A DNA stretch of 64,000 bases from Comamonas sp. (GTDB lineage Bacteria > Pseudomonadota > Gammaproteobacteria > Burkholderiales > Burkholderiaceae_C): positions 186,001 to 250,000 of the forward strand of contig JAQVCA010000002.1 of the NCBI GenBank assembly GCA_028690035.1. The letters run 5' to 3'. The notes beneath the pieces were generated by a model. It was not told the DNA's origin. It ran no database searches and worked only from the letters and a program-made list of their open reading frames with translations. How positions within the stretch are numbered: the first letter of the stretch is position 1; each line of letters begins with the position of its first letter. Position numbers and translations under genes: made by a program. Positions 6,017-25,762 of the stretch are shown here, piece by piece.

Positions 6017-6784
6017 ATGCAACGTTTCAAGGACAAGACTGTGATCGTCACCGGCGGCGGTGGTGGCATCGGCGGCGCTTCGTGCCTGCGTCTGGCCGCT
6101 GAGGGCGCCAAAGTGGCCGTTCTCGATCGCGATCTGGCCGCCGCGCAAAAAACCGTTGATGCGGTGCTGCAAGCCGGCGGACAAGCCGCTGCTTTTGCCT
6201 GCGATATCACCGATCGTGCCCAAGTCGATGCCGCAGTGGCCGCTGTGCAAGCGCAGCTGGGCCCCATCGCCGCCTTGGTCAACAACGCAGGCTGGGACGT
6301 TTTCAAGCCCTTCTTGAAGACCCATCCCACTGAGTGGGAAAAACTCATTGCCATCAACCTCACTGGCGCCTTGCACATGCTGCATGCGGTGCTGCCCGGC
6401 ATGGTCGAGCGTGGCTATGGCCGCGTGGTGAATGTGGCCTCGGACGCTGCGCGTGGCGGTTCGTCGGGCGAGGCGGTGTATTCGGCCTGCAAGGGTGGCT
6501 TGGTGGCTCTGTCCAAGACGCTGGCACGCGAGCATGCGCGCCACAACATCACCGTGAACGCGGTGTGCCCCGGCCCCACCGATACGGCATTGCTGGCGGG
6601 CGTGGCCGAAGGCGCACGCGACCCGGCCAAGCTGATTGAAGCGTTCCGCAGTGCCATTCCGCTGGGCCGTCTGGGTCAGGGCGACGATTTGGCCTCGGCC
6701 ATCGCCTTCTTTGCCAGCGACGACGCTGGCTTTGTGACCGGCCAGGTGCTCAGCGTCTCGGGCGGTTTGACCATGCACGGCTGA
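6017..6784 (+). CDS. badH: 2-hydroxycyclohexanecarboxyl-CoA dehydrogenase
   Basis: This is a 255-residue short-chain dehydrogenase that oxidises 2-hydroxycyclohexanecarboxyl-CoA to the 2-keto form with NAD+. Visible motifs are the TGGGGGIGG nucleotide loop near residue 12, NNAG, the catalytic Ser of NVASDAARGGSSGE, and the Tyr-Lys pair in YSACK. The segments NNAGWDVFKPF and CPGPTDTALL are ones I associate with BadH of Rhodopseudomonas palustris. I chose the ATG at 6017 because GGGAG sits about 5 nt upstream and the same arrangement precedes aliB; an ATG at 6005 overlaps that ribosome site. It is the first gene of the catabolic operon and badI follows. Confidence 0.88.
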   Translation: MQRFKDKTVIVTGGGGGIGGASCLRLAAEGAKVAVLDRDLAAAQKTVDAVLQAGGQAAAFACDITDRAQVDAAVAAVQAQLGPIAALVNNAGWDVFKPFLKTHPTEWEKLIAINLTGALHMLHAVLPGMVERGYGRVVNVASDAARGGSSGEAVYSACKGGLVALSKTLAREHARHNITVNAVCPGPTDTALLAGVAEGARDPAKLIEAFRSAIPLGRLGQGDDLASAIAFFASDDAGFVTGQVLSVSGGLTMHG

Positions 6785-6831
6785 TACCCGGCCCCCTACC
6801 CCCATTCATCAGTCATTAGCGAGACAACACC

Positions 6832-7614
6832 ATGAGCTTTGAAGACATCCTGTACGAAGTGAAGAACGGCGTGGCCTGGATCACGATCAACCGCCCCGAG
6901 AAGATGAATGCGTTTCGCGGCACCACCTGCGACGAAATCATCAAGGCGCTGAACAAGGCCGGCTACGACCGCGAGGTGGGCTGCATCGTGCTGGCCGGCG
7001 CGGGCGAGAAAGCGTTTTGCACCGGCGGCGACCAGTCCGCGCACGATGGCAACTACGACGGGCGCGGCACGATTGGCCTGCCCATGGAAGAGCTGCACAC
7101 CGCCATCCGCGACGTGCCCAAGCCGGTGATTGCCCGCGTGCAGGGCTTTGCCATCGGTGGCGGCAATGTGCTGTGCACGATCTGCGACCTGACGATTTGC
7201 TCGGACAAGGCCATCTTTGGTCAGGTCGGCCCCAAGATGGGTTCGGTCGACCCAGGCTATGGCACCGCCTTCCTGGCACGTGTCGTGGGCGAGAAAAAAG
7301 CGCGCGAAATCTGGTACCTGAACAAACGCTACAGCGGCCAGGAAGCCGTGGATATGGGCCTGGCCAATATCTGCGTGCCCCATGAGCAGCTCGATGCCAC
7401 CGTGCAGGAATGGGCCGAGACCATTTGCGAGCGCAGCCCCACAGCCATCGCCATTGCCAAGCGCAGCTTCAACATGGACACAGCGCACCAGTCAGGCATC
7501 GCCGGGCTGGGCATGTACGCGCTCAAGCTGTACTACGACACCGAGGAATCGCGCGAGGGCGTCAGCGCGCTCAAGGAAAAGCGCAAGCCCGAGTTCCGTA
7601 AGTTCTTCAAGTAA
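6832..7614 (+). CDS. badI: 2-ketocyclohexanecarboxyl-CoA hydrolase (ring cleavage)
   Basis: This crotonase-fold enzyme of 260 residues opens the six-membered ring of 2-ketocyclohexanecarboxyl-CoA by hydrolysis, giving pimelyl-CoA. It carries the segments FRGTTCDE, CTGGDQSAHDGNYDGRG, GFAIGGGNVL and FGQVGPKMGSVDPGYG, which I recognise from R. palustris BadI; these also resemble the related naphthoate synthases. The C-terminal EKRKPEFRKFFK tail is typical too. Length equals the known enzyme. It lies 47 nt after badH. The match to BadI rather than a generic enoyl-CoA hydratase is what fixes the pathway for the whole locus. Confidence 0.9.
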   Translation: MSFEDILYEVKNGVAWITINRPEKMNAFRGTTCDEIIKALNKAGYDREVGCIVLAGAGEKAFCTGGDQSAHDGNYDGRGTIGLPMEELHTAIRDVPKPVIARVQGFAIGGGNVLCTICDLTICSDKAIFGQVGPKMGSVDPGYGTAFLARVVGEKKAREIWYLNKRYSGQEAVDMGLANICVPHEQLDATVQEWAETICERSPTAIAIAKRSFNMDTAHQSGIAGLGMYALKLYYDTEESREGVSALKEKRKPEFRKFFK

Positions 7615-7643
7615 ATCCTTTCCACAAGCAAGGAGCTCTCTGC

Positions 7644-8804
7644 ATGGCACTCGATACCGAATCCTTTGACATCCTGCTGGCGACGGTGCAGCGCTTCGTG
7701 CGCGAGCGTCTGGTGCCTGCAGAAAACCACCTGGAAGAACACGACGAAGTGCCCCCGGCCCTCATTGAAGCAATGAAGGAAATGGGCCTGTTCGGTCTGA
7801 CCGTGCCCGAAGAGTACGGTGGCATTGGCCTGTCGGTCAGCCAGGAAGTGCTGGTCAACTACGAGCTGGGGCGCACTGCGCCAGCCTTTCGCTCGGTGTT
7901 TGGCACCAACATCGGCATCGGCTCGCAGGGCATTCTGATGGACGGCACCCCCGAGCAAAAGGCGCTGTACCTGCCGCGCGTGGCCAGCGGCGAGCTGATC
8001 ATGTCCTTTGCCCTGACCGAGCCGGATGCAGGCACCGACGCGGCCTCGCTGAAAACGCGTGCCGAGCTCGATGGCGACCACTACGTGCTCAACGGCACCA
8101 AGCGCTACATCACCAACGCCCCCCGCGCCGGCGCCTTCACGCTCATGGCGCGCACGGGTGGCCCCGGTGCCGGGGGCGTGTCGGCGTTCATCGTCGATGC
8201 CCACACCCCGGGCATCAGCCTGGGCAAAAACGACAAAAAGATGGGCCAGCGCGGCACCAAAACCTGCGACGTGATCCTGGAGAACGTGCGCGTGCCCGCG
8301 GCCAACATCATCGGGGGCGTGCCCGGCCAGGGCTTCAAGACCGCCATGAAGGTGCTCGATCGCGGGCGCCTGAACATCTCGGCCACCTCCTGCGGACTGG
8401 CCTCGCGCATCCTGGACGAAGCGCGCCGCTACGCCCGCGAACGCAAGCAGTTTGGCAAGGCGATTGGCGAGTTCCAGCTCATCCAGGGCATGCTGGCCGA
8501 CAGCCAGGCCGAGCTGCTGGCCGGCTGGGCGCTGGTGCGCGAAGTGGCGCAGCGCTTTGATGGCAAGCCCGCGCATGTGTCCGATCCGGACATCTCCATG
8601 CGCGTATCCTGCGCCAAGCTGTTTGCCACCGAAATGGTGGGCCGCGTGGCCGACCGTGGCGTGCAAATCCACGGCGGCGCGGGCTATATCAACGAATACC
8701 CGGTCGAGCGTTTCTACCGCGACGCACGCCTGCTGCGTCTGTACGAAGGCACCACCCAGGTGCAACAGCTCATCATCGGTCGCGAACTGCTGCGCCAAGA
8801 CTGA
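7644..8804 (+). CDS. Acyl-CoA dehydrogenase, probably for pimelyl-CoA
   Basis: This is a 386-residue flavoenzyme of the acyl-CoA dehydrogenase family. Visible landmarks are [15 protein letters not shown] and KRYITNAP around the FAD site, [12 protein letters not shown], and [27 protein letters not shown], where the Glu of YEGT is the usual catalytic base. The start has AGGAG 8 nt upstream. Placement directly after badHI and before glutaryl-CoA dehydrogenase suggests that it oxidises pimelyl-CoA. R. palustris uses a two-subunit PimCD for this step, so the substrate here is inferred from context only. Electrons would pass to ETF and the ETF:quinone oxidoreductase encoded in the same operon. Confidence 0.8.
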
Positions 8805-8899: not shown

Positions 8900-10090
8900 A
8901 TGAGTAACTTCCACTGGAACGACCCTTTCCAACTCGATCAGCAACTCACCGAAGACGAGCGCATGATCCGCGACGCCGCGCGCAGCTACTGCCAGGACAA
9001 GCTGGCCCCGCGCGTGCAGGACATGTTCCGCCACGAAAAAACCGACATCTCCATCTTTCGCGAGATGGGCGAGCTGGGCCTGCTGGGCCCCACCATCCCC
9101 ACGCAGTACGGCGGCGCGGGCCTGAACTACGTCAGCTACGGCCTGGTGGCGCGCGAGATCGAGTGGGTCGATTCGGGCTACCGCTCCATGGCCAGCGTGC
9201 AATCGTCCCTGGTGATGGTGCCCATCAACACCTTTGGCACCGAAGCGCAAAAGCAAAAATACCTGCCCAAGCTGGCCACCGGTGAATACATCGGCTGCTT
9301 TGGCCTGACCGAGCCCGACCACGGCTCCGACCCCAGCAGCATGATAACGCGCGCCCAGAAAGTGGCCGGCGGCTACCAGCTCAGCGGCAGCAAGATGTGG
9401 ATCACCAACAGCCCTGTGGCCGATGTGTTTGTCGTCTGGGCCAAAGAGGTGTCCGAAAGCGGCGCTGTCGGCCCCATCCGCGGCTTCATTCTGGAAAAGG
9501 GCATGAAAGGGCTGTCGGCCCCGGCCATCCACGGCAAGGTGGGCCTGCGCGCCTCGGTCACGGGCGAGATCGTCATGGACCAGGTGTTTGTGCCCGAAGA
9601 GAACGCCTTCCCCGAAGTGCAGGGCCTGAAAGGCCCCTTCACCTGCCTGAACAGCGCGCGCTACGGCATCGCCTGGGGCGTCATGGGCGCCGCCGAGGCC
9701 TGCTGGCACACCGCACGCCAGTACACGCTGGACCGCAAGCAGTTTGGCCGCCCCCTGGCCGCCAACCAGCTGATCCAGAAAAAACTGGCCGACATGCAGA
9801 CCGAAATCACCCTGGGCCTGCAAGCGGCGCTGCGCGTGGGCCGCATGAAGGATGAGGGCCAGAACGTGGTGGAAATCACCTCGCTGATCAAGCGCAACAA
9901 CTGCGGCAAGGCGCTGGACATTTCCCGCATGGCGCGCGACATGCTGGGCGGCAACGGCATCAGCGACGAGTTCGGCGTGGCGCGCCACCTGGTGAACCTG
10001 GAGGTGGTCAACACCTACGAGGGCACGCACGACATCCACGCCCTGATCCTGGGCCGTGCGCAGACCGGCATTGCCGCGTTCTGCAACTAA
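8900..10090 (+). CDS. gcdH: Glutaryl-CoA dehydrogenase
   Basis: This 396-residue decarboxylating acyl-CoA dehydrogenase converts glutaryl-CoA to crotonyl-CoA and CO2. Family marks include the N-terminal [62 protein letters not shown], and the catalytic segment [17 protein letters not shown] with Glu in YEGT. The start at 8900 has GGAG 7 nt upstream; an earlier ATG at 8855 has no such site. Glutaryl-CoA is the expected product after one round of beta-oxidation of pimelyl-CoA, so the gene fits this operon. A hairpin element separates it from the next gene. Confidence 0.92.
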
Positions 10091-10204: not shown

Positions 10205-12298
10205 ATGACCAGCGACAGCGACACCGACCACACCGCCCCCGCCATTCAGACCAGCCGCACCGATGGCGTGCTGGTCATTGAAATCTGCAACCCCCCGGTG
10301 AATGCCGCCTCGGCCGCGGTGCGCCAGGGCCTGGTCGCTGCGCTGCAGACGCTGCAGGCGGATGCCGATCTGCAGGCTGGCGTGCTCATGGGCGCGGGCA
10401 ACACCTTTGTGGCAGGTTCTGACCTGCGCGAATTTGGCCAGCCCATGCAGCACCCGCAGCTGCCCGCCGTGATTGCCGCCATCGAGCAATGCAGCAAGCC
10501 CGTGGTGGCGGCCCTGCACGGCGCAGCGCTGGGCGGCGGGCTGGAGCTGGCGCTGGGCTGCGATGCCCGCGTGGCCCAGGCCGGCACCCAGCTGGGTCTG
10601 CCCGAGGTGACGCTGGGCATCATCCCCGGCGCCGGTGGCACCCAGCGCCTGCCCCGGCGCACCGGGCTGCTGCAGGCCATCCCCCTGATCTGCCGTGGCG
10701 AGCGCTTTGCCGCCGCGCAGGCGCTCAAGCTGCGCCTGGTCGATGCCGTGGTGGACCAAGACGCCGACCTGCGCGCCCACGCCATCGCCCATGCCCTGGG
10801 CCTGCAGGGGCGCAAACAGCGCATCCGCGACGAGGCCGTGCCCGCCGAGGATGCCGCCCAGATTGCCGCCGCCGAACAGGCCGCGCTGCGTGCGGGCAAG
10901 CACCAGCCCGCCGTGGTCGCCGCCATTGCCGCGCTGCAAGACAGCGCCCGCCTGCCCTTTGACGAGGCCCTGGCGCGCGAGCGCGCCGCGTTCGAGGCCC
11001 TGCGCCTGTCCCCGCAGGCCCTGGCCCTGCGCCACCTGTTCTTTGCCGAGCGCGAAGCCACCCGCCCGCCCGCGCAATGGGCCAAAGCGCCCGATGCCGC
11101 ACCGCGCGCCGTGCAGACCGTGGCCGTGATTGGCGCGGGCACCATGGGCACGGGCATTGCCATTGCCGCCCTGGGCGCAGGGCTGCAGGTGGTGCTGCTG
11201 GAGCAAACCCCCGAAGCCCTGGACACGGGCCTGCAGCGCATCACCAGCCACTACGCCGGCCGCGTGCAGGCGGGCAAGATGGGCGCCGCCCAGGCCAGCG
11301 CCGAGCAAGAGCGCCTACACGGCAGCTGCCACTGGCCCGACATTGCGCGCGCCGATCTGGTGATCGAGGCCGTGTTTGAAGACCTGGCCGTCAAGCAGCA
11401 GGTGTTCCGCCAGATCGACCAGCATGCGCGCGCCGGTGCGGTGCTGGCCACCAACACCTCGTACCTGGATGTGGATGCCATTGCGCGCAGCACCCAGCGC
11501 CCGCAGGATGTGCTGGGCCTGCATTTCTTCAGTCCGGCCAACGTCATGAAGCTGCTCGAAGTGGTGCAAGGCAGCGACAGCACCCCCGACGTCCTGGCCA
11601 CCGGCCTGCAACTGGGCCGGCGCCTGGGCAAGCTGCCCGTGCTGTGCCGCAACGCCTTTGGCTTTATCGGCAACCGCATCTACAACGCCTACCGCCGCCA
11701 GTGCGAGTTCATGCTCGAAGACGGCGCCTGGCCCGAGGACGTGGACCAGGCCATGCAGGCCTTTGGCATGGCCATGGGGCCATTTGCCGTGGCCGACCTC
11801 TCGGGTCTGGACATTGCCTGGCGCATGCGCAAGGCCCAGGCGGCCACGCGCGATCCGCGCGAGCGCTATGTGGACATTCTGGATACGCTGTGCGAACAAG
11901 GCCGCCTAGGGCGCAAGAGCGGCGCGGGCTACTACACCTATGCCGACGGAAAGCACAACCCGGTCAGCGACGACACCGTGCGCGCCGTGATTGCCGACGC
12001 CTCGGCGCGGCGCGGCATCGCGCGCAAAGCCATTGGTCCCACCACCATCCAGCGCCGCGCGCTGCTGGCCATGGCCAACGAAGCGGCCTTGCTGCTGGCC
12101 CAGGGCGTGGCCCTGCGCGCCAGCGACATCGACGTGGTGCTGGCGCATGGCTACGGTTTTCCGCGCTGGGAAGGCGGCCCGGTGTTCTGGACACGCCAGC
12201 AAGACCTGGCCACCCTGACCCGGGAGCTGCAGGCCCTGGCGCAGGAGTGCGGCCACGGCTTTGTGGTCGGTGATCTGTCGATTCTGTTGCAACCCTGA
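10205..12298 (+). CDS. Enoyl-CoA hydratase / 3-hydroxyacyl-CoA dehydrogenase fusion
   Basis: This is a FadB-like multifunctional beta-oxidation protein of 697 residues. The crotonase domain comes first (about residues 10-200), with the oxyanion loop in HGAALGGGLELAL and both catalytic glutamates in place (GGLELA and LPEVTLGIIPGAGGTQRL). The NAD-binding dehydrogenase domain follows, with GAGTMG at residues 310-315, the HFFSPANVMKLLEVV segment, and two C-terminal helical domains. It should hydrate enoyl-CoAs and oxidise the 3-hydroxyacyl-CoA. No separate cyclohex-1-enecarboxyl-CoA hydratase (BadK) is encoded here, so its hydratase half may serve the ring intermediate too. It overlaps the thiolase by 1 nt (TGATG). 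Confidence 0.88.
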   Translation: MTSDSDTDHTAPAIQTSRTDGVLVIEICNPPVNAASAAVRQGLVAALQTLQADADLQAGVLMGAGNTFVAGSDLREFGQPMQHPQLPAVIAAIEQCSKPVVAALHGAALGGGLELALGCDARVAQAGTQLGLPEVTLGIIPGAGGTQRLPRRTGLLQAIPLICRGERFAAAQALKLRLVDAVVDQDADLRAHAIAHALGLQGRKQRIRDEAVPAEDAAQIAAAEQAALRAGKHQPAVVAAIAALQDSARLPFDEALARERAAFEALRLSPQALALRHLFFAEREATRPPAQWAKAPDAAPRAVQTVAVIGAGTMGTGIAIAALGAGLQVVLLEQTPEALDTGLQRITSHYAGRVQAGKMGAAQASAEQERLHGSCHWPDIARADLVIEAVFEDLAVKQQVFRQIDQHARAGAVLATNTSYLDVDAIARSTQRPQDVLGLHFFSPANVMKLLEVVQGSDSTPDVLATGLQLGRRLGKLPVLCRNAFGFIGNRIYNAYRRQCEFMLEDGAWPEDVDQAMQAFGMAMGPFAVADLSGLDIAWRMRKAQAATRDPRERYVDILDTLCEQGRLGRKSGAGYYTYADGKHNPVSDDTVRAVIADASARRGIARKAIGPTTIQRRALLAMANEAALLLAQGVALRASDIDVVLAHGYGFPRWEGGPVFWTRQQDLATLTRELQALAQECGHGFVVGDLSILLQP

Positions 12299-13533
12299 TG
12301 CTGAAAGGCTTTGCCACCATGCCCCGCTCTACCCCCGACGCATTCATCTGCGATGCCATCCGCACCCCCATTGGCCGCTACGGTGGCGCCCTCAGCACGG
12401 TGCGCACCGACGATCTGGCCGCCCTGCCCATCAGGGCGCTGATGCAGCGCAACCCCCACGTCGATTGGGCCGCCGTCAGCGATGTGCTCTACGGCTGCGC
12501 CAACCAGGCCGGCGAAGACAACCGCAACGTGGCGCACATGGCCAGCCTGCTGGCCGGTTTGCCCGTCGAGGTGCCCGGTGCCACCATCAACCGCCTGTGC
12601 GGCTCGGGCATGGACGCCGTGGGCAGCGCTGCACGCGCCATCCAGGCCGGTGCCGCCGGCCTGATGATTGCCGGTGGCGTCGAGAGCATGAGCCGCGCCC
12701 CGTTTGTCATGCCCAAGGCCGACAGTGCTTTCAGCCGCACCAACGCCGTGTACGACACGACGATCGGCTGGCGATTTGTCAACCAGCTGATGAAAGAAAA
12801 ATACGGCATCGATTCCATGCCCGAAACCGCCGAGAACGTGGCCCGGGAGTTTGGCATCGAGCGCGCCGCGCAAGACCGCATGGCCCTGGCCAGCCAGACC
12901 AAGGCCCTGGCGGCGCAGCAGGCGGGCCATCTGGCGCGCGAGATCGTGCCCGTGACCATTGCGCAAAAGAAGGGCGATCCCATCGTCGTCAGCCAGGACG
13001 AGCACCCGCGCGCCACCAGCCTGGAGGCACTGGCCAAGTTGAAGGGCGTGGTGCGCCCTGATGGCAGCGTGACCGCCGGCAACGCCAGCGGGGTGAACGA
13101 CGGTGCCTGCGCCCTGCTGCTGGCCGACGAGGCGCGTGCGGTGCAGTACGGCCTGACGCCGCGCGCCCGCGTGCTGGGCATGGCCACCGCCGGGGTCGCG
13201 CCGCGCATCATGGGCATCGGCCCCGTGCCGGCCACGCAGAAAGTGCTCGCCCTGACCGGCCTGACGCTGGCCCAGCTGGATGTGATCGAGCTCAACGAAG
13301 CCTTTGCCGCGCAGGGCCTGGCCGTGCTGCGCCAGCTGGGCCTGCAAGACGACGACGAGCGCGTCAACGCCTGGGGCGGTGCCATTGCCCTGGGCCACCC
13401 GCTGGGCGCCAGCGGCGCGCGTCTGGCCACCACGGCCGTGAACCGTTTGCATGCCAGCGGCGGCCACTACGCGCTGTGTACCATGTGCATCGGCGTGGGC
13501 CAGGGCATCGCCCTGGTGCTGGAGCGCGTGTGA
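12298..13533 (+). CDS. Acetyl-CoA acyltransferase (thiolase)
   Basis: This 411-residue thiolase of the PcaF/FadA type cleaves 3-ketoacyl-CoA. Motifs are the AIRTPIGRYGGAL start, the nucleophilic Cys in NRLCGSGMDAV, GGVESMSRAPFVM, NEAFAAQ, the GHPLGASGAR His motif and the C-terminal catalytic Cys in CTMCIGVGQG. In this operon it would release acetyl-CoA from 3-ketopimelyl-CoA and from acetoacetyl-CoA. The ATG at 12298 overlaps the upstream stop; an ATG at 12319 with AAAGG upstream is an alternative. ETF:quinone oxidoreductase starts 1 nt after its stop codon. Confidence 0.93.
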   Translation: MLKGFATMPRSTPDAFICDAIRTPIGRYGGALSTVRTDDLAALPIRALMQRNPHVDWAAVSDVLYGCANQAGEDNRNVAHMASLLAGLPVEVPGATINRLCGSGMDAVGSAARAIQAGAAGLMIAGGVESMSRAPFVMPKADSAFSRTNAVYDTTIGWRFVNQLMKEKYGIDSMPETAENVAREFGIERAAQDRMALASQTKALAAQQAGHLAREIVPVTIAQKKGDPIVVSQDEHPRATSLEALAKLKGVVRPDGSVTAGNASGVNDGACALLLADEARAVQYGLTPRARVLGMATAGVAPRIMGIGPVPATQKVLALTGLTLAQLDVIELNEAFAAQGLAVLRQLGLQDDDERVNAWGGAIALGHPLGASGARLATTAVNRLHASGGHYALCTMCIGVGQGIALVLERV

Positions 13534-13534: not shown

Positions 13535-15235
13535 ATGACGCATCCCGACATCCTGCGCGCCCATGGCCCGCGTGAAGCCATGGAGTACGACGTGGTCGTC
13601 GTGGGCGGCGGCCCCGGCGGCCTGGCCACGGCCATCCGCATCAAGCAGCTGGCGGCCCAGCACGGCCAGGAGCTCTCGGTGGTGGTGCTGGAAAAAGGCT
13701 CCGAACCCGGGGCGCACATCCTCTCGGGCGCCATCATGGACCCCCGGGCGCTGACCGAGCTCATCCCCGACTGGCACGCCCAGGGCGCACCGCTGACCCA
13801 GCCGGTGACCGACGAGGCCTACAGCTTCCTGAGCGCCACCTCGGCCTGGCGCGTGCCCCACCTGTTGCTGCCGCCCTTTGCGCACAACCACGGCAACTAC
13901 ATCGTGCGCCTGGGCGATGTGACCAAGTGGCTGGCCGAGCAGGCCGAAGCGCTGGGCGTGGAAATCTTTCCCGGTTTTGCCGGGGCCGAAGTGCTGTACA
14001 GCGACGACGGTGCCGTGCGCGGCGTGGCCACGGGCGATATGGGCATCGGCAAGGATGGCCAGCCCACCGAGAACTTCCAGCTGGGCATGGAGCTGCTGGG
14101 CAAATACACCATCTTTGCCGAGGGCGCGCGTGGCCACCTGGGCAAGCAGGTGATCGCCAGGTTCGGGCTTGACGCCGGGTGCGATCCGCAAAGCTTTGGC
14201 CTGGGCATCAAAGAGCTGTGGGAGATCGATCCCGCGCGCCATCGCCCCGGCTTTGTCATGCACACCGCCGGCTGGCCCATGGACAGCGACACCTACGGCG
14301 GCGCCTTCCTCTACCACCTGGAGGGCAACAAGGTGGCGCTGGGCTTTGTCACCGGCCTGGGCTACAGCAACCCCTACCTGAGTCCGTTCGAGGAATTTCA
14401 GCGCTGGAAGACGCACCCCAACATCCGCTGGTATTTTGAAAATGCCCAGGGCGAGATCACCGCCAAACGCCTGTCGTATGGTGCGCGCGCCATCAATGCC
14501 AGCGGCCTCAACGCGCTGCCGCAGTTCGTCTGCCCGGGTGGTGCGCTGGTTGGGTGCGACGCGGGCTTTTTGAACGTCAGCCGCATCAAGGGCAGCCACG
14601 CCGCCATCAAGACCGGCATGCTGGCGGGCGAAGCGGCCTTTGCCGCCCTGGTGGCCGGGCGCCAGCACGATGTGCTGCACGACTACCCCGCCGCCTTTGA
14701 AGCCAGCTGGCTCTACGACGAGCTGTACCGCGACCGCAACTTCAAGAACTGGTTCAAGTACGGCCTGGGCGTGGGCACGCTGATGAATGGCCTGGAGCAG
14801 CTGGTGCTGCGCGGCCATGCGCCCTGGACGCTGCGCCGCACCAAGGCCGACCACGAATACCTCAAGCCGGCCAGCCAGTGCCCGCCCATCGACTACCCCA
14901 AGCCCGATGGCCAGCTCACCTTCGATCGCCTCAGCAGCGTGTTCATCAGCAACACCAACCACGAAGAGCAGCAGCCCGCGCACCTGACGCTGAAAGACGC
15001 CAGCGTGCCCGTGCGCATCAACCTGGCGCAATACGCCGGGCCCGAGACGCGCTACTGCCCCGCCGGGGTGTACGAGTTTGTGCCCGATGAGGCCCTGGGT
15101 GGTCAGGCCCAGCGCCTGCAGATCAACGCGCAAAACTGTGTGCACTGCAAGACCTGCGACATCAAAGACCCGACGCAAAACATCGTCTGGGTCACGCCCG
15201 AGGGCGGCGGCGGGCCCAACTACGCGGGCATGTGA
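13535..15235 (+). CDS. Electron transfer flavoprotein:ubiquinone oxidoreductase
   Basis: This is a 566-residue membrane-associated flavoprotein. It takes electrons from ETF, reduced by acyl-CoA dehydrogenases, and passes them to ubiquinone. An FAD-binding VVVVGGGPGGLATA motif lies near residue 18. The C-terminal [4Fe-4S] cysteines are in RYCPAGVYEF and CVHCKTC. Three dehydrogenases in this locus (AliB, the 7644 enzyme and GcdH) would all feed it. The ETF subunits themselves are not in the window. The gene follows the thiolase by 1 nt and closes the operon at a terminator. An internal ATG at 13580 is a possible alternative start. Confidence 0.93.
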   Translation: MTHPDILRAHGPREAMEYDVVVVGGGPGGLATAIRIKQLAAQHGQELSVVVLEKGSEPGAHILSGAIMDPRALTELIPDWHAQGAPLTQPVTDEAYSFLSATSAWRVPHLLLPPFAHNHGNYIVRLGDVTKWLAEQAEALGVEIFPGFAGAEVLYSDDGAVRGVATGDMGIGKDGQPTENFQLGMELLGKYTIFAEGARGHLGKQVIARFGLDAGCDPQSFGLGIKELWEIDPARHRPGFVMHTAGWPMDSDTYGGAFLYHLEGNKVALGFVTGLGYSNPYLSPFEEFQRWKTHPNIRWYFENAQGEITAKRLSYGARAINASGLNALPQFVCPGGALVGCDAGFLNVSRIKGSHAAIKTGMLAGEAAFAALVAGRQHDVLHDYPAAFEASWLYDELYRDRNFKNWFKYGLGVGTLMNGLEQLVLRGHAPWTLRRTKADHEYLKPASQCPPIDYPKPDGQLTFDRLSSVFISNTNHEEQQPAHLTLKDASVPVRINLAQYAGPETRYCPAGVYEFVPDEALGGQAQRLQINAQNCVHCKTCDIKDPTQNIVWVTPEGGGGPNYAGM

Positions 15236-15322
15236 CAGCGCACCGACGGCACAAACCGCACAGGAGTCCTGCCAACTGCTGTTGGTCTAGTTTCATCAGG
15301 GTGCTATCTCTTGGATAGCTTG

Positions 15323-15357
15323 CGGCGCTTTCCCCATAAGGGAAGCGCCGTTTTTTT
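15323..15357 (+). terminator. Terminator of the badH-to-ETF-QO operon
   Basis: A G+C-rich stem CGGCGCT/AGCGCCG is extended by TCCC/GGGA and followed by seven T residues. It separates the operon from the convergent badR-like gene. The sequence just upstream (ATAGCTTG) resembles the hairpin-element family. Confidence 0.88.
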
Positions 15358-17335: not shown

Positions 17336-19003
17336 ATGCAATTCGACACCGTTCTATTGCCGCCGCGCCGCGCGCGCCTGATTGCCCAGGGTCTGTGGCA
17401 CGACCGCACCATCAATGGCGAGCTGGACGCCTGCGTCCAGGCCTGCCCCGACCAGCTGGCCCTGACCGCCGTGCAGGTGGAAACGGGCAACGTCCGGCGC
17501 TTTACCTACCGCGAGCTGGGCCAGATGGCCGACCGCATGGCCGTGGGCCTGGCGCGCCTGGGGGTGGGCAAGGGCGATGTGGTGGCCTGCCAGCTGCCCA
17601 ACTGGTGGCAGTTCACGCTGATGTATCTGGCCTGCTCGCGCCTTGGTGCGGTGGTGAACCCGCTGATGCACATCTTTCGCGAGCGCGAGCTGTCCTTCAT
17701 GCTGCAGCACGGCGAGGCCAAGGTGGCCGTGGTGCCCAAGATGTTCCGCGGCTTTGACTTTGAGCAGATGCTGCTGGGCCTGCAGCCCAGCCTGCCCCAC
17801 CTCAAGCATGTGCTGGCCATTGGTGGCCAGGGCAGCTCCAGCTTTGAAGCCCTGCTGTGCGAGCCCGAGTGGGAAAAGGCCAGCGACGCACAGGACATCC
17901 TCACGCGCAGCCGCCCGGGCCCGGACGATGTCACCCAGCTGATCTACACCTCGGGCACCACCGGCGAGCCCAAGGGCGTGATGCACACGGCCAACACGCT
18001 GATGTCCAACATCGTGCCCTACGCGCGGCGCATGCAGCTCGATGCCCAGGATGTGATCCTGATGGCCTCGCCCATGGCGCACCAGACCGGCTTCATGTAC
18101 GGGCTGATGATGCCCATCCTGCTCAAGGCCAGCGTGGTGCTGCAAGATGTGTGGGAGCCCAAAAAGGCCATTGCCCTGATCCAGCAGGAGCAGGTGTCGT
18201 TCACCATGGCCTCCACCCCCTTCCTGACCGATCTGGCACGCACTGTGGCCGCAGAACGGCAAGCGGGCGGTATCGGCGTGCCCACGCTGCGCACGTTTTT
18301 GTGCGCGGGCGCGCCCATCCCTGGCCCGCTGGTGGAGCAGGCGCGCTCGGCGCTGGGTGTGAAGGTGGTCTCGGCCTGGGGCATGTCGGAAAACGGCGCG
18401 GTGACCACCACCGAGCTGAGCGACGACGATGAGCGCTCGATCAACACCGACGGCCACCCCCTGCCCGGCGTGGAGGTGAAGGTGGTGGATGTGGATGGCG
18501 CGCCCCTGCCCAACGGCACGCCCGGGCGCCTGCTGCTGCGCTCGTGTTCCAACTTTGGCGGCTATCTCAAGCGCCCACATCTGAACGGCACCGATGCCGA
18601 CGACTGGTTCGATACCGGCGACCTGGCCACCCTGGACGCGCGCGGCTACATCCGCATCACCGGGCGCAGCAAGGACGTGATCATCCGCGGCGGCGAGAAC
18701 ATTCCAGTGGTGGAAATTGAGGCCCTGCTCTACAAGCACCCAGCCGTGTCGCTGGCCGCCGTGGTGTCCTACCCCGACGAGCGCCTGGGCGAGCGCGCCT
18801 GCGCCGTGGTGGTGCCCAAGGAGGGACAGACCCTCAGTCTGGCAGAGCTGCAGCGCTTCATGCACGAGCACAAGGTGGCCATCCAGTACGTGCCCGAACG
18901 CCTGATCCTGCAAGAGGCCATGCCCGCCACGCCCTCGGGCAAGATTCAGAAGTTCAAGCTGCGCGATGCCATCCGTGAACTGATCCGCAACACCCCGGAG
19001 TAA
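17336..19003 (+). CDS. aliA: Cyclohexanecarboxylate-CoA ligase
   Basis: This 555-residue acyl-CoA synthetase of the AMP-forming family activates the ring acid with ATP and CoA. Motifs are YTSGTTGEPKG (from residue 204), the AWGMSENGAVTTT A5-like motif, DTGDLATLDARGYIRITGRSKDVIIRGGENI, and the catalytic Lys in PSGKIQKF near the C-terminus. The N-terminal LPPRRARLIAQGLWHDRTI is typical of the cyclohexanecarboxylate-ligase subfamily as I know it. A ribosome site (CCGGAG) precedes the ATG. The following permease gene begins 7 nt after the stop, so uptake and activation are co-transcribed. Confidence 0.87.
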   Translation: MQFDTVLLPPRRARLIAQGLWHDRTINGELDACVQACPDQLALTAVQVETGNVRRFTYRELGQMADRMAVGLARLGVGKGDVVACQLPNWWQFTLMYLACSRLGAVVNPLMHIFRERELSFMLQHGEAKVAVVPKMFRGFDFEQMLLGLQPSLPHLKHVLAIGGQGSSSFEALLCEPEWEKASDAQDILTRSRPGPDDVTQLIYTSGTTGEPKGVMHTANTLMSNIVPYARRMQLDAQDVILMASPMAHQTGFMYGLMMPILLKASVVLQDVWEPKKAIALIQQEQVSFTMASTPFLTDLARTVAAERQAGGIGVPTLRTFLCAGAPIPGPLVEQARSALGVKVVSAWGMSENGAVTTTELSDDDERSINTDGHPLPGVEVKVVDVDGAPLPNGTPGRLLLRSCSNFGGYLKRPHLNGTDADDWFDTGDLATLDARGYIRITGRSKDVIIRGGENIPVVEIEALLYKHPAVSLAAVVSYPDERLGERACAVVVPKEGQTLSLAELQRFMHEHKVAIQYVPERLILQEAMPATPSGKIQKFKLRDAIRELIRNTPE

Positions 19004-19010: not shown

Positions 19011-19862
19011 ATGCTAACGATCAATCTGTTCAACGGACTGGTGTACGGCGCCCTGCTCATCATCATGAGTTCAGGCCTGGCACTGATCTACGGCCTGCGG
19101 CGGGTGGTGAACTTTGCCCACGGCGCGCTGTACATGCTGGGCGCCTACATCGCCTTCACGGTGGCCACGCACAGCAATTTCTGGGTGGCGCTGGTGGTGG
19201 CCCCGCTGGTCATGGCGCTGGTGGGGGTGCTGCTCGATCGCTACGGTTTTCGCCTGCTGCAAGACCGCGAGCCGCTGAACGTGATGCTGGTCACTTTTGG
19301 TCTGTTGCTCATTCTGGAAGACCTGGTGGTCTTCATCTGGGGCAAGGGCAACCACTCGCTGTTCACGCCGCAGCTGCTCAATTTCTCGGTGCCGCTGTTG
19401 GGCGAAAGCCTGCCGGCCTATCGCATCGGGGTGATTGTGGTGGGCGCGGTCGTGGCCCTGGGGCTGACGCTGTGGCTGCGCTATTCGCGCATGGGCCTGT
19501 TTGTGCGCGCGGCCAGTACCGATCCGGTGACCACGTCCATGCAGGGGGTGAACACCGATGGCTTGAGCGCCACCGTCGTGGGCCTGGGTGCCGCACTGGC
19601 CGGATTGGCGGGCGTGGTTGCGGCGCCGTTCCTGTCGCTGTCGCCGCACATGAGTTCGGACGTGCTCATCGACTCTTTCGTGGTGGTGGTGATTGGCGGC
19701 CTGGGCTCGCTGGCCGGTGCCTTCATCGCCGCCTTGCTGCTGGGGATGATGCAGGCCATCGGCGCGGTGTACCTGCCGCAGGTATCGGTACTGCTGCCGT
19801 TCTTGTTCATGATTGCCATCCTGGTCTGGAAGCCCTCGGGCCTGGCCGGTAGCCGCACCTGA
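19011..19862 (+). CDS. ABC transporter permease, LivH type
   Basis: This is a 283-residue integral membrane protein with about eight hydrophobic segments, of the branched-chain amino acid (HAAT) permease family. It has the family pattern GLVYGALLIIMSSGLALIYGLRRVVNFAHGALYMLGAY at the start and the cytoplasmic-loop motif VVVIGGLGSLAGAFIAALLLG that contacts the ATPase. It should form a heterodimeric channel with the next gene. Its place in the aliBA operon argues for cyclohexanecarboxylate or a related acid as substrate rather than amino acids; this is inference. Confidence 0.9.
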   Translation: MLTINLFNGLVYGALLIIMSSGLALIYGLRRVVNFAHGALYMLGAYIAFTVATHSNFWVALVVAPLVMALVGVLLDRYGFRLLQDREPLNVMLVTFGLLLILEDLVVFIWGKGNHSLFTPQLLNFSVPLLGESLPAYRIGVIVVGAVVALGLTLWLRYSRMGLFVRAASTDPVTTSMQGVNTDGLSATVVGLGAALAGLAGVVAAPFLSLSPHMSSDVLIDSFVVVVIGGLGSLAGAFIAALLLGMMQAIGAVYLPQVSVLLPFLFMIAILVWKPSGLAGSRT

Positions 19863-19881: not shown

Positions 19882-20826
19882 ATGCCTTTGAGTCTTTCCC
19901 GCATTGCCCAGGCGGCGCTGCTGGCCCTGGTGGGCGGTGCGCTGATCGCGGCGCTGACCAGTTCGGCCAGCCTGCTGGGCATGTTCACCCAGGCCGTGAT
20001 CTACGCCATCTTCGCGCTGGGCGTGGGCGTGCTGCTCAAGCAAAACGGCCTGGTCAGTTTTGGCCATGCGCTGTTTTTTGGTGCTGCCGGCTACGGCATG
20101 GGGCTGGCGCTGACGCTGCAGTGGCTGCCCGCCGAGCTGGCCTTGCTGGCGGTGCTGGCGGCCATTGCCGTGGGGGCTTTCCTGATCGGTCTGGTCATCG
20201 TGCGGGTGCCCGGCATTGCGTTTGGCATGCTGACGCTGGCCATTGGCCAGATGGCCTACCTGCTGGCCTCGCGTGCGCGCGGTGTCACTGGCGGCGCTGA
20301 CGGCATGGGCATTCCGTGGCCGGATACGCTGTTTGGCATCTCCCAGGCCACGCTGCTGGAGCCCACCACGCTGTTTCTGCTGTCCTGGGTGCTGATGGTG
20401 CTGGTCACCTGCGTGCTGGTCTGGCTGCTGGGCACGCGCTTTGGCGCCGTGACCGAGGCCATCCGCGACAACGAGGAGCGCGCGCTGGTGTACGCGCTGT
20501 CGGCCGTGGTCACGGGCATTGCCGGGCTGCTGTCGTCGCTGAACACGGGCTTCATCTCGCCCGAGAGCCTGCACTGGAGCGTTTCGGCCATCACCTTGCT
20601 GATGGTGGTGGTGGGGGGCTTCAAGCGCCCCATCGGCCCCATCGTGGGCGCCATCGTGTATTTCCTGTTCAAAGACCTGCTGGGCGAATGGGCCACGCAC
20701 TCGCTGGCGCTGTTTGGCGCGGCGCTGATTGCGGTGATCGTGTTCTCGCCCGATGGCATCGTCGGCGCCGCAACCAAGTTGCGCCAGCGCCTGCGCTATG
20801 GCCCCCTGGCAAAAAAAGAAGGCTGA
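19882..20826 (+). CDS. ABC transporter permease, LivM type
   Basis: This is the second permease of the HAAT-type importer, 314 residues. It shows FALGVGVLLKQNGLVSFGHALFFGAAGYGM near the N-terminus and the ATPase-contact region VVVGGFKRPIGPIVGAIVYFLFKDL. AAGGAA precedes the ATG at 19882. It is 19 nt behind its partner and 4 nt ahead of the ATPase gene. An upstream in-frame ATG at 19813 lies within the preceding gene and lacks support. Confidence 0.9.
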   Translation: MPLSLSRIAQAALLALVGGALIAALTSSASLLGMFTQAVIYAIFALGVGVLLKQNGLVSFGHALFFGAAGYGMGLALTLQWLPAELALLAVLAAIAVGAFLIGLVIVRVPGIAFGMLTLAIGQMAYLLASRARGVTGGADGMGIPWPDTLFGISQATLLEPTTLFLLSWVLMVLVTCVLVWLLGTRFGAVTEAIRDNEERALVYALSAVVTGIAGLLSSLNTGFISPESLHWSVSAITLLMVVVGGFKRPIGPIVGAIVYFLFKDLLGEWATHSLALFGAALIAVIVFSPDGIVGAATKLRQRLRYGPLAKKEG

Positions 20827-20830: not shown

Positions 20831-21568
20831 ATGAGCACCCCAACTTCAACGGTTTCCTATGTATTGCAGGCCGAGGATGTGGCCATCCACTATGGCGGCG
20901 TCAAGGCCCTCGATGGCGTGGAGCTGACGCTGGAAAAAGGCCAGATCCGCGGCCTCATCGGCCCCAACGGGGCGGGCAAATCCACGGTGATCGATGCCAT
21001 CACCGGACGTCGGCGCCTGACGCGCGGGCGTGTGCTGCTCGATGGCGAAGACGTCACCACCCTGGGCGCGGTCGAGCGGCGCAAGCGCGGCCTGTCGCGC
21101 AGCTTTCAGCGCACCAGCATCTTTGCCGGCATGACGGTGCGCCGTCAGGTGGAGCTGGCCTCGTTCCAGATGGGCGTGCTCGACAGTGAGGCCGATGCCG
21201 ATGCCGTGCTCGAAGAGCTGGATCTGGCACGCCTGAGCAACATGGTGGCCGAAGACCTGGGCTACGGCGAACAACGCCGCCTGGACCTGGCCCTGGCCCT
21301 GGTGGGGCGCCCCAAGCTGCTCATGCTCGACGAACCCATGGCAGGCCTGTCGGTGCAAGAGTCGCACGACCTGGCCGACCACCTGCAGGCGCTGACCTCG
21401 CGCTGGAGCGTGTCGGTGCTGCTGGTCGAACATGATATGGACGTGGTGTTTGGCATCTCCAATGCCGTCACCGTCTTTGAACTGGGCCGCGTCATCGCCA
21501 GCGGCGATCCGGCCAGCGTGCGCGCCAACAGCCGTGTGCGCGAGGCCTATCTGGGGAGTGCCGCATGA
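20831..21568 (+). CDS. ABC transporter ATPase, LivG type
   Basis: This is a 245-residue nucleotide-binding subunit. Walker A is GPNGAGKST. The signature region deviates: where LSGGQ is expected, it has LGYGEQRRLDLALAL, as is usual in LivG proteins. Walker B is LLMLDEPMAGL, followed by LLVEHDMDVVF. The start was set at 20831 (MSTPTSTVS). The stop overlaps the next ATG by 4 nt (ATGA), so the two ATPases are probably made in equal amounts. Confidence 0.92.
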   Translation: MSTPTSTVSYVLQAEDVAIHYGGVKALDGVELTLEKGQIRGLIGPNGAGKSTVIDAITGRRRLTRGRVLLDGEDVTTLGAVERRKRGLSRSFQRTSIFAGMTVRRQVELASFQMGVLDSEADADAVLEELDLARLSNMVAEDLGYGEQRRLDLALALVGRPKLLMLDEPMAGLSVQESHDLADHLQALTSRWSVSVLLVEHDMDVVFGISNAVTVFELGRVIASGDPASVRANSRVREAYLGSAA

Positions 21569-22312: not shown

Positions 22313-23491
22313 ATGAGGAAACCCACCACCCTGCTGACCGGTGTTGCACTGGCTGCCGCGCTGCCCCTGGGCGCACTGGCCCAGGACAAAGAGCCGATCA
22401 AGATCGCGCTGGTGACGTCCAAGTCCGGCGCCTTTTCCACCATGGGCGCCGATGTGGCCAATGGCGTCAAGTTTGCCGTCGAAGAGGCCAACGCCAAGGG
22501 CGGCATCGACGGGCGCAAGATTGAACTGGCCGAGGGCGACGACGAGAGCACGCCCGACGCCGGGCGCCGCGTGGCCGAAAAACTGGCGCGCGACGGGCAC
22601 AAGCTCATCATTGGGCCCATCACCTCGTCCATCTCTCTGGCCATCAGCCAGAACCTGGCGCGCTGGGATGCTGCCTTCATTGGCACCATCAGCAAGGCCG
22701 ACAAGCTCACACAAGACGCCTGCAGCCCGCGCTTTGTGCGCACCAACCACTCCGACGCCATGGACTTGGCTATGATCAACGAGTGGGCCAAAACGGTGCC
22801 GGGCAACAACTTTGCCATCATGGCCGCCGACTATGTCTGGGGCCAGGACTCGGCCAAATCCTTTGAAGCGGCCGTCACCGCCCAGGGCAAGAAGGTGGGC
22901 ACCAAGCTGTTCGTGCCTCTGGGCACCAAAGACTACGCGCCCTACATCCAGCAGCTCAAGAACGCCAAGCCCGATGCCGTGTGGGTGGCCGACGTCTCGG
23001 GCGCCATCGCCTTCACCAAGCAGGCGGCCGACTTTGGTCTGATTCCGCAAACGCCGCTGATCGGCCACGCGCTGCTGTCCAACTTCATCGTCAATGCCAC
23101 AGGCACGGCCCTGACGAATGTGCCCGGCAACGTGGGCTATACCCCCGACATCGACACCCCGCAAAGCAAGGCCTTTGTCGCGGCCTTCAAAGCCAAGCAC
23201 CAGCGTCTGCCCTCTGACACCGAAGGCCAGGCCTACAACGGCGCCATGGTGCTGCTCCAAGGCGTGAAGCTGGCCGGCAGCGTCAAGCCCGCTGAAGTCA
23301 CCAAGGCCCTGCGCGGCGCCGAAGTGGACACGCTGTACGGCAAGGCCACGGTGCGCGCGGCCGACAACCAGCTGCTCATCCCCAACTACATCGCGCGCGT
23401 CAAGACCGCCGATGGCGTGCTGCGCCCGGTGATCGAGCACACCTACCCCGCCAGCATCGTCCCGCCAGCATCGCCGCTGTGCAAGATGTAA
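22313..23491 (+). CDS. Periplasmic substrate-binding protein of the ABC importer
   Basis: This is a 392-residue binding protein of the Leu/Ile/Val type. A signal peptide occupies residues 1-23 (hydrophobic core GVALAAALPLGALAQ). The mature part begins KEPIKIALVTSKSGAFSTMGADVANGVKFAVEEANAKGGIDGRKIEL, the standard start of this family. AAGGAGA lies 8 nt before the ATG at 22313. It delivers ligand to the permeases encoded upstream. The ligand is inferred from context to be an alicyclic carboxylate. Confidence 0.9.
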   Translation: MRKPTTLLTGVALAAALPLGALAQDKEPIKIALVTSKSGAFSTMGADVANGVKFAVEEANAKGGIDGRKIELAEGDDESTPDAGRRVAEKLARDGHKLIIGPITSSISLAISQNLARWDAAFIGTISKADKLTQDACSPRFVRTNHSDAMDLAMINEWAKTVPGNNFAIMAADYVWGQDSAKSFEAAVTAQGKKVGTKLFVPLGTKDYAPYIQQLKNAKPDAVWVADVSGAIAFTKQAADFGLIPQTPLIGHALLSNFIVNATGTALTNVPGNVGYTPDIDTPQSKAFVAAFKAKHQRLPSDTEGQAYNGAMVLLQGVKLAGSVKPAEVTKALRGAEVDTLYGKATVRAADNQLLIPNYIARVKTADGVLRPVIEHTYPASIVPPASPLCKM

Positions 23492-23557: not shown

Positions 23558-24652
23558 ATGCGTCGCACCCAACCTTTCACCGCCCCGATGTTGGGCGCCT
23601 TGCTGCTCTGCGCAGGTGCCAGCACCCCGGCACTGGCCCAAAGCGTCACCCTCTACGGTCTGGTGGATACCGGCATCGAGCGCCTGGACAACACCAGCTC
23701 GGGCGGCAGCATCATGCGCATGCCCAGCATTGCCGGATCGGCCGCCTCCCGCTGGGGCGTGCGTGGCAGCGAAGACCTGGGCAATGGCCTCAAGGCCGTG
23801 TTCACCCTGGAATCGGGCTTTGGCCTGGACACCGGGGAAACCCAGCAAGGCGGGCGCGCTTTTGGACGCCAAGCGTTTGTTGGCGTCTCGGGCCGCTGGG
23901 GCCAGCTGTCGCTGGGGCGCCAGTACTCGATGCTGCTGCCTGGCTCGGCCAACAGCGATCTCTTTCTGGCCCAAATCTATGGCACCGGTGCCTTTGACAC
24001 CTACCTGGCCGGCCCGCGTCTGGACAACGCGCTGGCCTACCTGGGCAAGTTTGGCGGCGTGACAGCGGGCGTGCTGTACAGCCTGGGCCGCGATGGTCTC
24101 TCCTGCCCCGGAGAAAGCAGCAACAGCAGCGAGTGCCGCGCCTGGTCTGCCGTGCTGAAGTACGACACCCCCACCTGGGGCGTGGGTTCGTGGATCGACG
24201 AGCAAAACGGCCGCGATAGCCGCGCCACGGGCGGGGCCGACCTGAGCGAGAAAACCGATCGCCGCTGGGCAATCAATGGCTACGTCCTGTTGGGCAAAAC
24301 CAAGCTGGCGGCCAACTACATGCAACGCAAGAACGAAAGTGCTGCGGCCACGCAGCAAAAAAGCACCCTGTGGTCGCTGGGCGTGGCCCACCCCTTGAGC
24401 ACTGCCGTCACGCTGGAAGCACAGTACTACGACTTCAGCTACAAGGACAGCGCCGACGGCGGCAAGATGCTGGCGCTGCGCGGTACCTATGCGTTCTCCA
24501 AACGCACCGCCGTCTATGCCACGGTGGGCGCGCTGCGCAACGATGGCAAAGCGCGCTTCTCGCCCTCGGTAGCGGCCAGCAACACCGCCCTGGCGCCCCT
24601 GGCCGGTGAAAACCAGACCGGCATCATGGTCGGCCTGCGCCACGCGTTCTAG
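23558..24652 (+). CDS. Gram-negative porin
   Basis: This is a 364-residue outer-membrane porin of the betaproteobacterial type. A signal peptide ending STPALAQ is followed by SVTLYGLVDTGIERLDN, the usual first strand. Further motifs are RWGVRGSEDLGNGLKAVFTLESGF, RQAFVGVSGRWGQLSLGRQY and the C-terminal GLRHAF ending in Phe, the assembly signal. GGAGAC precedes the ATG at 23558. It lies 66 nt behind the binding-protein gene, so it probably lets the ring acid cross the outer membrane. Confidence 0.9.
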   Translation: MRRTQPFTAPMLGALLLCAGASTPALAQSVTLYGLVDTGIERLDNTSSGGSIMRMPSIAGSAASRWGVRGSEDLGNGLKAVFTLESGFGLDTGETQQGGRAFGRQAFVGVSGRWGQLSLGRQYSMLLPGSANSDLFLAQIYGTGAFDTYLAGPRLDNALAYLGKFGGVTAGVLYSLGRDGLSCPGESSNSSECRAWSAVLKYDTPTWGVGSWIDEQNGRDSRATGGADLSEKTDRRWAINGYVLLGKTKLAANYMQRKNESAAATQQKSTLWSLGVAHPLSTAVTLEAQYYDFSYKDSADGGKMLALRGTYAFSKRTAVYATVGALRNDGKARFSPSVAASNTALAPLAGENQTGIMVGLRHAF

Positions 24653-24661
24653 GCCTGCACC

Positions 24662-25762
24662 ATGCACACCCAGGCAGCCTTTATCACCGGCCACGGCGGC
24701 AACGACGTGGTGCAGGTGGCAGCGCGCAGCCTGCCTGCGCGCGCGCCCGGTCAGGTGCGCGTGCGCATGCAAGCTGCCACCCTCAACCAGGTGGACTTGT
24801 ACATGCGCAACAGTGGTGCAGGCATCACGCACCAGCTGCCGCAAATTCTGGGACTCGATGGCGCGGGCATCGTGCACGAGTGCGACAGCCACGATCCGCT
24901 GCTGCGCCCCGGGCAGGAGGTGGTGATCCACCCGGGCGTGGCCTGTGGCCGCTGCGAGTTCTGCCTGGGCGGCGACAGCGCGCTGTGCAGCCGCATCCAG
25001 TTTCTGGGCGAACACCGCGACGGCACCTTTTCCCAGTGGGTGCAGGTGCCTGCGGCGCAGCTGTTCCCCAAGCCCACGCACCTGGACTGGGGCGAGGCGG
25101 CGGCCCTGGGCGTCAACCACCTGACGGCCTGGCGCATGCTGTTCACCAAGGCGCGCCTGCAGCCCTGGGAGACGGTGCTGATCTTTGGCATCGGCGGCGG
25201 GGTGTCGCTGGCCGCGCTGCAACTGGCCAAGGCCATCGGCGCGCGCGCCATCGTCACCTCACGCAATACCGACAAACTGGAACGCGCCCGCGCCCTGGGC
25301 GCCGACCAGGTCATCCACAGCACGACCCAGGATGTGGCCAAAGAGGCTCTGGCACTCACCGGGGGCCGAGGCGTGGACGTGGTGTTCGAGAACGTGGGCG
25401 CCGCCGCCTGGCCCTGGGCCATGAAAGCGCTGGTGCGCGGTGGCCGCCTGGTCACCTGCGGCGCCACCACCGGTGATCAGCCCGGCGCCGATCTGCGCCG
25501 CCTGTTTGTGCGGCAGCTGCAAATCTTTGGTTCCAGCCTGGGCACCCTGGGTGAATTCCATGACCTGCTGGGCTTTGTGCAGCGCACGGACCTGCGCCCT
25601 GTCATCGACAGCCGCTTTGCCCTGGCCGATGTGCATGCGGCGCTCAACCGCCTGGAGTCGGGCGCGCAGTTCGGTAAGGTGGTGCTGGAGTTGGATACAG
25701 CGCCACCTCCTGCGCCAGCAAGGCAATCGAGCGCGGGGCGCAGCCTTCGGCATCGTTGCTGA
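24662..25762 (+). CDS. Zinc-type MDR oxidoreductase (quinone reductase/alcohol dehydrogenase-like)
   Basis: This is a 366-residue medium-chain dehydrogenase. Visible are a structural zinc lobe with four cysteines (GVACGRCEFCLGGDSALCS), GLDGAGIV, and the NADPH-binding FGIGGGVSLAALQLAK. Cofactor and fold are clear; the substrate is not. It starts 9 nt after the porin stop and so belongs to the aliB operon by position. No step of the cyclohexanecarboxylate route obviously needs it. Its last 119 nt overlap the convergent DUF72 gene, and its tail after about residue 345 (Pro/Ala then Arg/Ser-rich) looks non-homologous, as if the original stop was lost. Confidence 0.82.
   Translation: MHTQAAFITGHGGNDVVQVAARSLPARAPGQVRVRMQAATLNQVDLYMRNSGAGITHQLPQILGLDGAGIVHECDSHDPLLRPGQEVVIHPGVACGRCEFCLGGDSALCSRIQFLGEHRDGTFSQWVQVPAAQLFPKPTHLDWGEAAALGVNHLTAWRMLFTKARLQPWETVLIFGIGGGVSLAALQLAKAIGARAIVTSRNTDKLERARALGADQVIHSTTQDVAKEALALTGGRGVDVVFENVGAAAWPWAMKALVRGGRLVTCGATTGDQPGADLRRLFVRQLQIFGSSLGTLGEFHDLLGFVQRTDLRPVIDSRFALADVHAALNRLESGAQFGKVVLELDTAPPPAPARQSSAGRSLRHRC

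Follow-up and report, generated by a model that had tools for sequence, protein, structure and literature searches.

We conclude that a 64,000-nucleotide stretch of Comamonas sp. DNA (GenBank assembly GCA_028690035.1, contig JAQVCA010000002.1, positions 186,001 to 250,000 of the forward strand; hereafter the window) very probably carries, at positions 6017-25762, a chromosomal locus of the bad-ali-aab type that oxidises cyclohexanecarboxylate (CHC). CHC is a ring-shaped acid occurring in crude oil. The locus holds 17 intact reading frames: two runs that point the same way and, between them, a MarR-type regulator gene on the opposite strand. Run 1 (6017-15235) comprises badH, badI, an acyl-CoA dehydrogenase gene (acd1), gcdH and genes for a FadB-type fusion, a PcaF-type thiolase and an electron transfer flavoprotein (ETF):quinone oxidoreductase (ETF-QO). 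Run 2 (16061-25762) comprises aliB, aliA, four ABC transporter genes and genes for a periplasmic binding protein, a porin and a zinc-type dehydrogenase. Gene identities at family level, the layout, a duplicated control region and a conserved palindrome were observed directly. The runs would represent two co-directional operons bound by one BadR-like repressor. The assignment to CHC is supported by equivalog scores, by the GcdH match, by relatives that share the gene set and the palindrome position, by the presence of the palindrome at only two sites in the 2.9-Mb genome, by the lack of a benzoyl-CoA reductase subunit A match and by the proven function of a homologous cluster in Aromatoleum sp. 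CIB (PMC9795900).

For BadH, BadI, AliB, AliA and the thiolase we used NCBIfam equivalog cut-offs, and Pfam for the remaining families apart from GcdH; genes lie on the forward strand except where indicated. The cyclohexanecarboxylate-CoA ligase AliA (17336..19003) scored 925.2 bits with TIGR03208 (cut-off 792.3) and is the sole copy above this cut-off in the genome. The cyclohexanecarboxyl-CoA dehydrogenase AliB (16061..17218) scored 689.5 bits with TIGR03207 (cut-off 575.35), and the 2-hydroxycyclohexanecarboxyl-CoA dehydrogenase BadH (6017..6784) had TIGR03206 as its best family, with 423.3 bits. The ring-opening enzyme BadI, a 2-ketocyclohexanecarboxyl-CoA hydrolase (6832..7614), reached 524.1 bits with TIGR03210 (cut-off 467.6). 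Its nearest solved structures are MenB-type proteins. The initial annotation, in which each named gene proved to be an intact open frame at or near its predicted position, had considered that the 6832 protein might group with ordinary enoyl-CoA hydratases instead of BadI. It does not, since the second family, of MenB type, scored 319 bits vs 524 for TIGR03210, and both the ordinary hydratase and MenB were rejected.

The lower pathway begins directly 3′ of badI with acd1 (7644..8804), in the position of AabA. Its product has Pfam acyl-CoA dehydrogenase domains and a catalytic-type YEGT motif, and its position suggests that it is probably a pimelyl-CoA dehydrogenase. It is not PimC/PimD-like, as judged by scores of 85.5 and 101.8 bits vs cut-offs of 623.85 and 652.7. 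GcdH (8900..10090; a start at 8900 is more likely than one at 8855) matched the solved glutaryl-CoA dehydrogenase 3gnc with 734 bits and conserves the DSGYRS block and a second 12-residue block, which together rule out a mere look-alike. It is the only strong match in the genome, the next own-genome protein being 37% identical. The FadB/FadJ-type enoyl-CoA hydratase/3-hydroxyacyl-CoA dehydrogenase fusion (10205..12298) was assigned by Pfam, with 6ium as best solved match (553 bits). Both crotonase glutamates and the HFFSPA motif were found by eye. The PcaF-type thiolase (12298..13533, start possibly 12319) scored 693.6 bits with TIGR02430 (cut-off 597) and is probably a 3-oxopimelyl-CoA thiolase. 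ETF-QO (13535..15235, start 13535 or 13580; PF05187, PF21162) is a second copy, 76% identical to the other one on contig C14 of the genome, and ETF is encoded once in the genome, on contig C21, which is not that of the locus. For the aab lower pathway and the gcdH step, each of the five activities (pimelyl-CoA dehydrogenase, hydratase, dehydrogenase, thiolase and glutaryl-CoA dehydrogenase) has a family-level candidate, with specificity for pimelyl-CoA being predicted. A terminator-like hairpin (15322..15351, forward strand; 12-pair stem followed by a T run) lies 3′ of operon 1. The hairpin/T-run scan as a whole is not significant, with 19 matches vs 15.4 in shuffles.

BadI above the cut-off occurred in 30 of 200 family genomes, including that of the window. 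We compared 109 stretches, 80 of them named (the best 80 of at least 583 relatives) and 29 from other family genomes above the cut-off. These correspond to 101 distinct badI genes, 73 of which have at least 8 kb downstream; the stretches reach at most ~10-16 kb downstream of badI and some meet contig ends. Presence was called by identity thresholds of our own choosing, so distant gene versions would be missed. BadH matches at 60% identity or more in 92 of the 101 relatives. Among the 73 stretches we found acd1 in 22, gcdH in 16, badK in 27, the fusion in 5, the thiolase in 7, ETF-QO in 4, the LivH permease in 8, the zinc dehydrogenase in 9 and the porin in 1. The combination of acd1, gcdH, fusion, thiolase and ETF-QO occurred in none. 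Near-complete one-piece loci do exist, since one relative (L140) carries four of these five genes together with badK and the upper genes within 20 kb. The gene order of the window, with lower-pathway genes between badH-badI and aliB-aliA and with badR facing aliB, was seen by eye in 0 of the 109 stretches.

The known background comes from Sanz and Diaz (2022; PMC9795900). In that work, a betaproteobacterium depends on its bad-ali genes for using CHC both aerobically and anaerobically, BadR acts as a repressor that responds to CHC-CoA, and an aab lower pathway is linked. Clusters are described in Comamonas, Acidovorax, Variovorax, Polaromonas and others, with badK absent from most Burkholderiales clusters and gcdH linked in some; the homologous cluster of Aromatoleum sp. 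CIB was proven by badHI deletion and repressor assays. The CIB cluster and its relatives share with the window AliA, AliB, BadH, BadI, BadR, a pimelyl-type dehydrogenase directly 3′ of badI, steps for thiolase and hydratase/dehydrogenase, a single MarR repressor governing two transcription units and, in some, linked gcdH (PMC9795900). CIB has badK and separate aabB and aabC, whereas the locus in the window lacks badK and has the fusion; the CIB operons diverge from a shared region, whereas the two same-direction operons of the window each have a copy of it; and the operator cores differ. The window also has ETF-QO and an importer, while 'transporter', 'ABC', 'ETF' and 'quinone' are absent as whole words from the main text of PMC9795900, where etfAB is mentioned.

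Closer relatives vary in the same features. The bad-ali operon of Rhodopseudomonas, described for R. palustris in PMC9795900, is represented here by Rhodopseudomonas pseudopalustris (L107). It shares MarR-type regulation, BadH (76%), BadI (86%), AliB (79%), AliA (70%) and BadR (78%), but has a single badH-badI-aliB-aliA-badK operon and, unlike the window, its 20-kb stretch shows no match to acd1, gcdH, the fusion, the thiolase or ETF-QO. Comamonas granuli (L042) shares ETF-QO, thiolase, badR, badH, badI, aliB, aliA, the importer and the zinc dehydrogenase, with no acd1 or gcdH match in its stretch and a fusion of only 45%. L140 shares the upper genes, acd1, gcdH, fusion and thiolase, with no ETF-QO match in the stretch. 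Both L042 and L140 have badR divergent from an unbroken badH-badI-aliB-aliA-badK array, unlike the window. The claim of the initial annotation that the arrangement departs from the Rhodopseudomonas palustris model holds in part, its novelty being overstated by comparison with that model alone. Linkage to ETF-QO, the division into two operons and the doubled control region stand as real differences, but the pathway, its host group and the linkage of gcdH had already been published (PMC9795900). In the open-access literature we found no report of the operator variant, the duplicated control region or the ETF-QO linkage, and no paper on Comamonadaceae and cyclohexanecarboxylic acid. The locus is best described as a modest variant of the known bad-ali-aab system.

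The badR-like MarR-family gene (15366..15929, reverse strand; PF12802) was also identified by a tblastn match to the relatives' badR adjoining badH. It is divergent from aliB in the window and from badH in most relatives shown. The control region of operon 1 (5867..6023, forward strand), with the palindrome GTAAACATATTTAC at 5936-5949, is a near-copy of that of operon 2 and badR (15911..16067, forward strand), with GTAAACATATTTAC at 15980-15993. The two are 157 bp long and 85% identical without gaps; a gapped local alignment scored 198 vs a best of 29 in 200 shuffles. At one end the copied segment takes in the first codons of badR and at the other the seven opening bases of badH and aliB, with the operator lying in between. 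The relatives' BadH starts with ATGCAA or ATGCAG in 30 of 92 cases and their AliB with MNPY or MNPNPY in 53 of 83 (one MQANPY, 8 unreadable). The AliB of the window starts with MQPNPY, which looks like the beginning of a badH fused to that of an aliB. On the simplest reading, the arrival of the lower-pathway genes in between would have been accompanied by copying of the badR-badH control region, badH start included, to a position ahead of aliB, the direction of copying being presumed. Comparison of the two control regions with the 109 stretches by blastn gave no match at E 1e-3, so conservation is confined to a short block.

That block is the palindrome. GTAAACATATTTAC lies at -81 of both badH and aliB and has the form AAAN4TTT in a conserved 14-bp frame. 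The published site CAATNNATTG is absent from the window, and CAAN4TTG has 22 matches in the window, none in either control region. In relatives, the 14-bp palindrome GWMAAYRYRTTKWC is found at the corresponding position (median -84, range -186 to -36) and occurs in 54 of 72 divergent badR-badH regions vs 0 in 40 shuffling rounds. This control overstates significance because the pattern was fitted to these data, having been drawn up with the regions in view, and because relatives share ancestry. CAAN4TTG was found in 35 of the 72 regions (5.4 by shuffling) and CAATNNATTG in 14. In an alignment of 60 regions, the palindrome block stands out from unconserved flanks. A slightly narrower pattern, GWMAAYRTRTTKWC, matches exactly the two locus sites in the 2.9-Mb genome, and a reversed-pattern control matches once. 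A weaker third operator-like site, GCAAACATATTGAT, with 3 mismatches, lies at 5778-5791 on the minus strand, ~237 bases before badH.

The 14-mer was found in 62 of 89 badH upstream regions of relatives, where the outer core positions are C+G in 28, C+T in 18, A+G in 15 and A+T in one (L075, like the window). In 34 of the 62, one or both half-sites are altered at the first base of CAAN4TTG. Because gel shifts reported in PMC9795900 show this base to be essential for CIB BadR, either the relatives tolerate a changed first base or their BadR has changed.

The initial annotation had called the locus self-contained and a full route. This goes too far, as badK (cyclohex-1-ene-1-carboxyl-CoA hydratase) is not in the locus, where aliA (ending at 19003) is followed directly by the importer (starting at 19011), and ETF lies on another contig. 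The genome (2.9 Mb, 22 contigs, 99.79% complete) was searched with the BadK of the C. granuli locus, which gave one 64% match on contig C22, the next being 40%, and no orthologue. The C22 hydratase has an 82-89% identical counterpart in 6 of 8 genomes tested, with and without BadI; a congener (G128) in which no BadI above the cut-off was seen shares this type. C. granuli, Acidovorax soli and a Rhodoferax genome each have it alongside a distinct BadK, and a tree places it apart from the BadK clade (support 0.989). BadK orthology was thus rejected for this protein, which is a generic hydratase. Two Brachymonas genomes are alike in having the cluster without badK, with a next match of 43% after the generic hydratase. 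A role of the C22 gene as BadR target was likewise rejected, no exact operator being found in the genome beyond the two locus sites; its 16-kb stretch has 4 operator matches with 2 mismatches vs 1.81 expected.

Two enzymes could fill this step. The fusion at 10205 may hydrate cyclohexene-carboxyl-CoA in place of BadK, making the locus self-contained after all; we regard this as possible but doubtful. It has both crotonase glutamates and is the only hydratase encoded in the locus besides BadI, but homologues of at least 58% sit beside badK in four of five badK-bearing relatives (L069, L077, L092 and L140; not seen in the fifth, L082, where little sequence is available to one side), so the fusion is not a general BadK substitute. 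The C22 hydratase, 64% identical to BadK, is available as well. A generic enzyme is therefore the more likely replacement.

With a generic hydratase at this step, we propose a route whose substrates and order of reactions are predicted. The porin and ABC importer would take in CHC, AliA would form CHC-CoA and AliB would dehydrogenate it. An unlinked or generic hydratase, not BadK, would add water, BadH would oxidise, and BadI would open the ring to give pimelyl-CoA. Conversion of this product into glutaryl-CoA and acetyl-CoA would fall to the 7644 dehydrogenase, the fusion and the thiolase. GcdH would then yield CO2 and crotonyl-CoA, which the fusion and a thiolase would finish to acetyl-CoA. 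The three dehydrogenases would deliver electrons to the C21-encoded ETF and the local ETF-QO copy. BadR would repress both operons via the duplicated 14-bp palindrome and be released by a CoA intermediate.

Several observations weigh against a CHC locus of this kind. BadH, at 423.3 bits, is ~8 under the TIGR03206 equivalog cut-off of 431.2. BadK is missing from the locus with no orthologue found in the genome, leaving one step without a dedicated enzyme; pathway membership is not excluded by this, because most Burkholderiales clusters in PMC9795900 lack badK. The base reported there as essential for CIB BadR is changed, relative to the published core, in each of the two operator copies. Finally, a sigma-70-like promoter was found at neither site, the promoter scan giving 1 vs 2.2 expected.

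The locus might instead serve another alicyclic acid, such as substituted naphthenic or monoterpene-derived ring acids, with CHC as a side substrate. For methyl-substituted CHC, a role of Bad-type genes was suggested in Cupriavidus gilardii (PMC4547698), and for monoterpenes that of a badKHI cluster without aliAB (as told in PMC9795900); the porin and zinc dehydrogenase have no role in the plain CHC route. We consider this rather unlikely, AliA and AliB being far above CHC-specific cut-offs. It is highly unlikely that CHC is used via an aerobic P450/4-hydroxybenzoate route with the locus as auxiliary: this route is known in other aerobes (PMC9795900) and the genome has one P450 match (C12:8512-9054), but that gene is not linked to the locus, which holds a complete ring-opening set. 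Still less probable is a role in anaerobic benzoate degradation, which BadH and BadI serve in R. palustris (PMC9795900). It is largely refuted by the lack of a match to the class I benzoyl-CoA reductase subunit A, the only subunit searched, in this 99.79% complete genome, and linked aliA and aliB would be superfluous for it.

Taken together, family scores support a CHC-type catabolic locus with uptake, a lower pathway and an ETF-QO gene, as initially annotated. More speculatively, the copied control region may have created a two-operon regulon coupling ring opening, C7 dicarboxylate oxidation, quinone reduction and uptake, in which BadR and operator would have shifted together to a symmetric AAA-N4-TTT form forbidden by the published rule. 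At the same time, BadK would have disappeared, leaving a generic or fused hydratase to carry out its reaction. The published assumption on the essential base of BadR sites needs widening, and the 14-bp pattern catches sites missed by the published core. An ordinary hydratase common to non-degraders can pass for a 'badK-like gene elsewhere'. Both the pattern and this caution would help to annotate naphthenic-acid degraders and to construct CHC biosensors or pathway modules.

The remaining genes of run 2 encode LivH- and LivM-type permeases (19011..19862 and 19882..20826; PF02653), LivG- and LivF-type ATPases (20831..21568, PF00005 and PF12399; 21565..22269, PF00005), a LivK-type periplasmic binding protein (22313..23491; PF13458), an outer-membrane porin (23558..24652; PF13609) and a zinc-type dehydrogenase/quinone-oxidoreductase-like protein (24662..25762; PF00107, PF08240), with the LivM and LivG starts picked by eye. 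The last protein reaches no NCBIfam cut-off. Homologues of it (at least 50%) lie near bad-ali genes in 9 of the 73 stretches, and in R. pseudopalustris one (59%) adjoins badR.

Intergenic hairpin-like repeats sharing AGCATAGCTGNTAGCGCTT were seen at 10098-10193, 17215-17312, 26729-26747 and 29539-29557. AGCATAGCTGNTAGCGCTT has 5 matches with at most 3 mismatches vs 0.04 expected, possibly a small palindromic repeat family. Elsewhere in the window, a phosphoenolpyruvate (PEP)-synthase-like gene is divergent from a kinase/pyrophosphorylase gene (PF03618), probably a PEP-synthase regulator (32076-35536). Thiamine synthesis genes lie at 50008-54405 (a ThiD-like kinase on the reverse strand, then FAD oxidoreductase, ThiG and ThiE-like frames on the forward strand). 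They are followed at 54402-63338 by type I restriction-modification-like genes for HsdM, HsdS, a Fic-domain protein (58633-60147) and an HsdR-like protein (60168-63338).

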